Part shown: positions 31,868-32,605 of the stretch, one piece after another
Numbering within the stretch: the stretch's first letter is position 1
How the letters are laid out: each line of letters starts with the position of its first letter
Origin: an uncultured Alphaproteobacteria bacterium
GTDB taxonomy: Bacteria > Pseudomonadota > Alphaproteobacteria > CAAHEQ01 > UBA3637
Direction of reading: 5' to 3'
DNA: 45,628 nucleotides
NCBI GenBank assembly: GCA_944392795.1
Contig: CALXXX010000014.1
Location: 1-45,628 of the forward strand
Position numbers and translations under genes: made by a program
Notes under the pieces: model-generated
Seen by the model: the letters and a program-made list of their open reading frames with translations, nothing else
Databases searched by the model: none
What the model was told of the DNA's origin: nothing

Positions 31868-31893
31868 GTCCAGTTTAACTGAACGTTTAAAAG

Positions 31894-31922
31894 TCCCCTG
31901 CTCTCAAAGCAGGGGATTTTTT
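31894..31922 (+). terminator. Strong intrinsic terminator after ppdK
   Basis: TCCCCTGCT pairs with AGCAGGGGA around a CTCAA loop, followed by TTTTTT. Confidence 0.95.
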
Positions 31923-31942
31923 GATCATCTATTTTTAACGCT

Positions 31943-32179
31943 AGACAAGATTTCTTTTGTCTGATAATCTGTAATCGTTGACATACGTTGTATGCAACAA
32001 GGGCGTAGAAAACCCTTTCCAAAACAAGTCGTTAAAGCATAACGACTTTAAATAAGTATGCCGATGTTCTGCCTTATATGGGCGGATGTCGGCGAATAAG
32101 GCTTTGGCTGAATAAACCGAGCCGTCTTTGTTTTGGAACGGTTTTCTAACATCCGCCCACCTTATCGGTGGGTTTTGTT
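31943..32179 (+). ncRNA. Candidate structured RNA, six or more hairpins
   Basis: This gap between the ppdK terminator and a lipoprotein gene folds densely. Hairpins: 31943-31950/31955-31962 with TTTC loop; 31977-31985/31991-31998. A long-range closing stem pairs 32001-32005 with 32054-32058 plus 100 (32154-32158), 32006-32014 with 32140-32148, and 32017-32027 with 32128-32138: 25 bp in all. It encloses hairpins 32028-32033/32041-32046, 32060-32073/32081-32093 (13 bp, one bulge) and 32100-32107/32117-32123. A terminator hairpin 32156-32161/32167-32172 with TTTTGTT follows. Bases 32080-32089 can also pair perfectly with 32149-32158. It could be a trans-acting RNA, a cis leader for the 32204 gene, or a C4-like antisense RNA. 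No clear promoter is seen. Confidence 0.5.
32156..32179 (+). terminator. Terminator hairpin ending the structured RNA region
   Basis: CCCACC and GGTGGG pair around TTATC, followed by TTTTGTT. It lies 25 bases before the lipoprotein ATG at 32204, so it either ends an independent RNA or acts as an attenuator. Its 5' arm overlaps bases used by two other possible pairings. Confidence 0.7.
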
Positions 32180-32203
32180 ATAACAAACAGAGGATTTTAG
32201 AAA

Positions 32204-32605
32204 ATGAAAAAAATATTATTATCTTTGATCGGAACGTCTTTCCTGATTAGTTGCACTCATTTAACATATAGAGAACAAGAAAATTTAGCTATTTTAAGAA
32301 ATAACGGCATAACAATAGATAAAGCTGGATATTATGAAGCTCCTAACTCTCCTTTAGCCGCTGGTCTCCTTAACATTTTACCGGGATTTGGTAATTTTTA
32401 TTTAGCTATGGGAGAGGGAGCTGATTCTAATCATTATGTTTTTGGTTTTATCAATCTTTTACTATGGCCTATTTCACCTCTTTGGGCCGTTCCAGAAGGT
32501 GTTATTGATGCTCAGACTATTAATAAAAGAGAAATGATTTATTTTTATAAATCAGATCCTTATGGAAAAAACGAATTAAGACAAAAAGAAATTATACTTA
32601 AGTGA
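32204..32605 (+). CDS. Small lipoprotein with Gly-rich hydrophobic core
   Basis: A 133-aa predicted lipoprotein: MKKILLSLIGTSFLISC with lipobox Cys 17. The mature part has a helical stretch, then a Gly/Pro-rich hydrophobic segment (AAGLLNILPGFGNFYLA) and a second one (FGFINLLLWPISPLWAVPE), and ends VIDAQTINKREMIYFY. The paired hydrophobic segments with an acidic loop recall small TM2-like membrane proteins, but I cannot name a family. AGAGGA at 32189-32194 serves as a distant SD. It sits just after the structured RNA. Its stop overlaps a GTG start of a 40-codon ORF (GTGA). Confidence 0.7.
   Translation: MKKILLSLIGTSFLISCTHLTYREQENLAILRNNGITIDKAGYYEAPNSPLAAGLLNILPGFGNFYLAMGEGADSNHYVFGFINLLLWPISPLWAVPEGVIDAQTINKREMIYFYKSDPYGKNELRQKEIILK

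Follow-up and report, generated by a model that had tools for sequence, protein, structure and literature searches.

A probable C4-type antisense switch with copy-specific addresses in the leader of an alphaproteobacterial lipoprotein gene

Architecture of the locus

We analyzed a 45,628-nucleotide stretch of DNA from an uncultured alphaproteobacterium (hereafter, the window), in which a structured segment (31943–32179) precedes the gene for a putative lipoprotein of 133 amino acids (32204–32605); the parts of the RNA and the gene are on the + strand. The protein carries a lipobox-like LISC motif, recognized by eye, and matched no Pfam family. Homologs of its gene sit behind other copies of the element (a cluster of 13). 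Just 3′ of ppdK, a GC-rich inverted repeat followed by T residues (31890–31921) is probably the ppdK terminator, separating ppdK from the RNA. A putative promoter for the RNA (31942–31970) consists of TAGACA (31942–31947) and TAATCT (31965–31970) spaced by 17 nt. Similar boxes occupy the same position in loci L003–L005, and promoter-like hexamers lie ~28 nt upstream of a1 in 39/85 copies, slightly above shuffled sequences (8.46 versus 7.76). The promoter is weakly recognizable, and a strict promoter scan did not report it; we therefore infer it from its sequence.

The RNA would then comprise a 5′ hairpin (31977–31998), an a1-like and a b1-like sense element, a spacer hairpin, a C4-type core, and a terminator. 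The 5′ hairpin varies freely in sequence among relatives, and the 26 nt upstream of a1 fold at a mean of −6.9 kcal/mol versus −1.8 for shuffles. The a1-like element, GGGCGTAGAAAACC (32001–32014), pairs with 32140–32148 and 32154–32158; its assignment rests on covariation, with variants such as TTTTCTA/TAGAAAA, TTTTCGA/TCGAAAA, and TTTCTGA/TCAGAAA. The b1-like element (32017–32027) is complementary to a barcode loop and was assigned by the own-b1 preference tests described below. In the spacer hairpin, AAGTCGTT/AACGACTT (32026–32048), double changes occur in all six counted pairs. According to the minimum-energy structure, the 5′ arm of the C4 stem is predicted to be masked by the segment at 32060–32074 when the long fold forms. 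The core itself (32080–32158) is a stem (32080–32089/32149–32158) with two inner hairpins, identified by its conserved fold and sub-threshold Rfam matches. It contains the hypervariable barcode loop (32126–32137), which covaries with b1 and takes the position of b′ in the C4 RNA of phage P1, and the antisense arm GGTTTTCTAACATCC (32140–32154), which takes that of a′ and is complementary to both a1 and the downstream ribosome-binding site (RBS). The terminator-like hairpin with its T-rich tail (32155–32179) recurs, as a hairpin, in nearly all copies listed. Beyond it lies the proposed antisense target GGATTTTAGAAAATG (32192–32206), comprising the Shine-Dalgarno sequence and start codon of the lipoprotein gene. 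Copies share the order free-sequence 5′ hairpin, GGGCGTNNAAAACCC, variable segment, spacer hairpin, core ending in GGTTTTCNAACATCCGCCC, terminator hairpin, RBS, and gene.

Competing folds

The segment has a folding energy of −89.7 kcal/mol versus −56.1 ± 4.8 for dinucleotide shuffles (z = −6.97; 0/200 as stable). An earlier note, made from the sequence alone, had described six hairpins here; the segment is structured as it proposed, but the first hairpin (31943–31962) falls in the putative promoter and is probably promoter DNA that is not transcribed. The 25-bp long-range stem of the same note is present with exact complementarity in all blocks: 32001–32005/32154–32158 (5 bp), 32006–32014/32140–32148 (9 bp), and 32017–32027/32128–32138 (11 bp). 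Equally perfect is the competing 10-bp pairing of 32080–32089 with 32149–32158, and the terminator placed after the RNA corresponds to a terminator-like hairpin with a T tail at 32155–32173. The suggestion of mutually exclusive pairings survives in part. The competing folds are real, but the 10-bp stem and the terminator do not exclude each other, overlapping only at 32156–32158, and the terminator coexists with the long stem in the lowest-energy fold. The real exclusion is therefore between a1/b1–antisense pairing, the C4 fold, and antisense–RBS pairing.

Relatives and covariation

The homolog search and covariation analysis that the earlier note had proposed yielded more than 80 distinct relatives, mostly from small-genome gut Alphaproteobacteria, with a second copy in the window's own genome (1.29 Mb, 41 contigs). 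Covariance model R1, for which 83 distinct copies served as the input, matched 35/43 genomes of the family, where the weaker matches (30–60 bits) may include diverged relatives, and 13/289 sampled genomes across the class at E 1e-5. Matches listed by an exact-pattern scan of GTDB were mostly metagenome-assembled genomes labeled Alphaproteobacteria, many named after animal gut samples. In phage and plasmid collections, one phage record and no plasmid matched, and the pattern matches in IMG/VR were weak and partial, with no full element. The phage record, MT836653.1 (L134; 9,264 bases, labeled Bacteriophage sp.), holds a full element before an autotransporter-like gene and, close by, two ORFs resembling serine recombinases; it has more the look of a piece of mobile or chromosomal DNA than of a phage.

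Across the 83 relatives, the long-range stem covaries strongly: 92.6% of cells are paired, both sides change in 19 of the 25 pairs, and 320 cells hold double changes against a shuffled mean of 103. None of 500 shuffles and no slid version approaches the observed covariation. Because this stem and the competing C4 fold, which is also kept in the 83 relatives, were derived from the same sequences, the slide control leans toward them (score of 0.394 versus 0.139 shuffled and ≤0.079 slid); the double changes at the barcode, where all four Watson-Crick pairs are in use, are independent of that bias. Conservation of the C4 fold alongside the long stem is expected if both states matter.

Genome G021 has C4-like matches arranged in tandem, two or three of them spanning a few hundred bases (C4:5739–6219, C14, and C6). 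Three genomes of genus g4 (G026, G062, and G022) have 6–13 model matches each, most of them weak (28–56 bits), which perhaps represent a diverged second branch of the family. An element lies behind ppdK in several genera (L001, L003, L004, L005, and L021), and the gene that follows it differs, encoding one of two unrelated lipoprotein types or an outer-membrane protein; the barcode loop is the same in L004 and L005, but their downstream genes differ.

Copy-specific barcodes

The barcode is a loop of 8–12 nt that pairs best with its own b1 in 72/86 copies. Within genomes (seven genomes, 2–10 sampled copies each), the best partner of an antisense half was its own a1/b1, taken together, in 40 of 41 cases. 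One genome, G115, has several nearly identical leaders that differ mainly in the matched barcode, and the paralogous genes behind them have nearly the same signal-peptide codons. The a1/b1 segment of the window has no second copy in its genome within 3 mismatches. Given a matched address of its own, each copy appears built to control its own gene alone.

Pairing with the downstream translation start

The pairing of the antisense arm with the lipoprotein RBS and start codon (32192–32206), which is the key to the proposed function, was absent from the earlier note. The arm–RBS duplex in the window has an energy of −13.3 kcal/mol. The motif GGANNTTAGAAAATG has exactly two sites in the whole genome of the window, both at the genes behind the two copies. 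Across 79 copies, the median own start region falls within the best 2% of 230 unrelated start regions, and 58 copies place theirs in the best 5%. In the remaining 21, roughly a quarter, pairing with the own RBS is weak, so these copies may have a different target or may act through termination. RBS variation tends to track arm variation, as in L080 (GGTTCTTAACATCC/GGAGTTAAGAAATG), L143 (CTGAAAATCC/GGATTTCAGAAATG), and L170. When copies were compared with each other, the own RBS was the single best partner in 2/79, because the same motif is common to many RBSs; the informative tests are those against unrelated genes, the genome-wide motif count, and the folding test. The core ends a median of 55 nt before the start codon, and as this interval is mostly terminator, it leaves little room for a second promoter. 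At L018 (1701–1732), an early stop cuts a lipoprotein-like frame, yet complementarity between its RBS and the antisense arm persists.

A switch is predicted when the leader in the window is folded under constraints. In the free RNA, the antisense is hidden in a1/b1 pairing and the RBS is open; when a1/b1 is blocked, mimicking occupation by a C4 RNA, the antisense instead pairs over the RBS and start codon. Averaged over 79 copies, antisense–RBS pairing rises from 0.19 to 0.57 upon blocking a1/b1 and is 0.18 with a control block of equal length. Pairing changed by at least 0.2 in 57/79 copies with the a1/b1 block versus none with the control. These values are folding predictions, and co-transcriptional kinetics lie outside the folding model. 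In the window, the a1/b1 stem (−31.9 kcal/mol) is much stronger than the RBS pairing, so repression in cis would depend on a1/b1 being occupied or cut off. The switch that the earlier note had suspected thus gains backing from covariation and constrained folding.

Genes behind the element

N-terminal export-like segments, called by a simple hydrophobicity rule rather than a trained predictor, occur in 72/92 downstream genes versus 64/230 control genes, or in 20/32 versus 68/272 when counted per protein cluster (p = 4e-5). Lipobox enrichment is significant per gene and not per cluster (p = 0.07). Pfam annotations include PEGA-domain lipoproteins, outer-membrane beta-barrels, beta-helix/Pmp repeats, and a pilin-like N-methylation motif, as well as glycosyltransferase, phosphotransferase, and DNA-methylase genes. 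The methylase genes, unlike the usual exported proteins, lie at L032:4248–5345 and L092:139–1311 (both EcoRI-methylase-like) and at L019:1622–2272 (N6_N4_Mtase).

Family assignment

In a search of this stretch only, the two best Rfam matches cover the same bases: RF02221 (sRNA-Xcc1) on 32080–32166 at 38.6 bits (E 2e-5; cutoff 53) and RF01695 (C4) on 32074–32164 at 32.3 bits (E 2e-4; gathering cutoff 45). The comparison with the C4 model that the earlier note had called for therefore gives a match, but a sub-threshold one. At gathering thresholds, the whole window yields a tRNA alone and no 6S, tmRNA, RNase P, SRP, or other family, in agreement with that note, which had recognized none of these four. 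The RF01695 cutoff was reached by 0/19 relatives, with the P1 control at 68.8 bits. Sub-threshold C4/sRNA-Xcc1 matches occur in 16/17 relatives, and RF02221 is the best-scoring Rfam model in the window and in 16/17 relatives (30–40 bits). The c4-a1b1 model (RF03163) has no match in the window up to E 5 and matches P1 at 51 bits; the c4 region of P1, our positive control, is recognized by RF01695 and RF03163 alike.

By design, the element resembles C4. A stem encloses two hairpins (95.7% of cells paired and 10 pairs with double changes in the 83 relatives), the antisense segments are complementary to a1/b1 in the same transcript, and complementarity extends to the region where translation of the downstream gene begins, although it is weak in roughly one copy in four. 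No phage antirepressor operon would be under its control; a putative lipoprotein gene lies downstream in a chromosomal setting. As both the family score and the antirepressor context are lacking, we class the window RNA, judged from its sequence, as C4-type, i.e., built like C4 and predicted to work like it, outside RF01695. The options raised in the earlier note of a leader of the lipoprotein gene and of a relative of the P1/P7 C4 RNAs are thus jointly right.

Proposed mechanism and alternatives

We consider it probable that the leader of the 32204 lipoprotein gene holds a self-contained C4-type antisense switch. One promoter would yield an RNA bearing the a1/b1 sense copies, the C4-fold core, and the terminator, followed by the gene; the two antisense segments of the core would be the variable barcode loop and the more constant arm. 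In a lone transcript, a1/b1 would pair in cis with these segments, keeping the antisense off the RBS, and read-through transcripts would be translatable. Once free C4-type RNA, in the form of terminated or processed copies, has built up, it would bind a1/b1 of new transcripts through the matching barcode and thereby release the antisense arm of the bound transcript onto its Shine-Dalgarno sequence and start codon, stopping translation. Free C4 RNA could also pair directly with the RBS. Owing to the barcode, each copy would answer mainly to its own RNA. Presumed parts of this scheme are transcription of the RNA, release of the C4-type RNA by RNase P or another nuclease, repression as the direction of effect (by analogy with P1), and a physiological input to the switch. 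A broader, doubtful but possible reading is that, in gut Alphaproteobacteria, an immunity RNA of the phage type has become a set of privately addressed switches, one per surface-protein gene, with barcodes that diversify along with gene duplication. Since free RNA and cis-pairing would compete, each switch could keep its own gene ON or OFF regardless of the others, as a counterpart of phase variation that leaves the DNA unaltered.

A terminator upstream of the gene and exclusive folds in the leader would also suit a cis-only attenuator or riboswitch, in which a ligand, protein, or translation signal acts through the folds to set terminator read-through and the likeness to C4 is only historical. 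Termination may carry part of the effect, but this reading as a whole is unlikely. A ligand-binding leader should keep a conserved pocket, whereas the most variable part here is the matched barcode, which differs even between paralogs of the same genome and so fits an RNA–RNA address. Moreover, the terminator coexists with the long fold and with the a1/b1-blocked fold. We regard as quite improbable an independent trans-acting sRNA with many chromosomal targets and the downstream gene as a mere neighbor. It would account for the RNA having its own terminator and for Hfq in 4/6 genomes tested, and the title of Chen et al. 2011 (cited in PMC12189769) describes sRNA-Xcc1 as trans-acting; yet the RBS match is with the adjacent gene, b1 is private to each copy, and the a1/b1 segment of the window lacks the near-identical genomic copies considered above.

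C4 is a phage immunity RNA (PMC12197685 and PMC5320573), and some related loci precede Bro-N, KilA-N, and P22_AR_N genes, as would befit a phage immunity remnant, a chromosomal C4 RNA silencing the antirepressors of incoming phages. This is very unlikely, as the closely examined copies adjoin housekeeping genes (ppdK, ssb-gyrA, and ribosomal) and precede exported-protein genes, and the sole phage-database match, MT836653, is an unverified fragment, with no full element among the IMG/VR matches. Least credible is a DNA element misread as an RNA, either a MITE or a folded recombination site of the integron attC type: several copies per genome, a long inverted repeat, and the presence of sRNA-Xcc1 in Xanthomonas integron cassettes (PMC12444791) point that way, but compensatory stem changes among divergent sequences are unlike a recently spread element, the element is linked to RBS sequences, and 0/6 genomes have an integron integrase above the TIGR02249 cutoff, and we reject both forms.

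Comparison with known systems

The prototype C4 is a 77-nt RNA that is processed by RNase P and represses in trans. The annotation of P1 (AF234172) lists the P1c4 promoter, a1, b1, C4, a2, b2, and icd. By our reading of positions, b′ would correspond to the loop in the second inner hairpin and a′ to the arm that follows; the barcode and antisense arm of the window occupy these positions. The preferred C4-type switch shares with P1/P7 the order promoter–a1–b1–C4–target gene, a stem enclosing two hairpins, antisense segments placed in the loop of the second of these and in the arm next to it, complementarity to the RBS region of the downstream gene, and specificity from loop differences (P1 versus P7). 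C4 of P1/P7 blocks translation of ant around its RBS (PMC12197685); according to PMC5320573, it is the b′ loop that covers the RBS, specificity comes from the a′ loop, and RNase P cuts the 5′ end. The RBS target in the window is the partner of the arm (a′ position), whereas in P1 the site b2 adjoins the icd start. Also unlike P1/P7, the window group scores below the Rfam cutoffs, is chromosomal with up to ~10 strong copies per genome, precedes mostly exported-protein genes and no antirepressor gene, and forms its terminator hairpin from the end of the core.

C4 and c4-a1b1 motifs were listed in Proteobacteria and phages by Weinberg et al. (PMC2864571). Acinetobacter baumannii has many chromosomal C4-like RNAs of open function, and its Group 1 C4-like sRNAs are, like the window group, multi-copy and chromosomal with a variable specificity loop, with evidence for processing at a GGW site (PMC5320573, available parts). 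Those parts leave targets open and do not describe pairing with a gene in cis, whereas gene, RBS, and barcode are matched in the window group. Translation of ant or symE is likewise blocked by small antisense RNAs, the P22 sar RNA and SymR, which have a different layout and, in the parts of the sources available, no C4 fold described. In the open-access literature searched, we found no account of this alphaproteobacterial RNA group or of per-gene matched barcodes.

The closest likeness by score is to sRNA-Xcc1, which is assigned to no clan in the Rfam version used and matches 45/349 sampled Pseudomonadota genomes; its type member was described as a trans-acting sRNA borne on an integron. Among 20 Rfam-positive loci (L175–L194) plus P1, upstream pairing averages −41.2 kcal/mol with the own locus versus −32.5 with other loci (own best in 9/21), and many RBSs match their own antisense in two blocks (e.g., L190 and L192). 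From these shared upstream sense copies and RBS matches, sRNA-Xcc1 and the window RNA appear to be variants of one C4-type design. Unlike in the window, the genes behind the examined Rfam-positive loci include those for SymE, Bro-N, KilA-N, and P22_AR_N proteins, and the matches suggest that the gene directly behind each locus is its target. Such targets (SymE toxin genes and antirepressors) would fit the question raised for Xanthomonas integrons of how sRNA-Xcc1, positioned ahead of symE, acts (PMC12444791). The window RNA, from a lineage that escapes Rfam models, would carry antisense control of the C4 type beyond phage immunity, to many surface-protein genes on the chromosomes of uncultured gut bacteria, and its matched barcodes within one genome would constitute a natural set of orthogonal RNA addresses.
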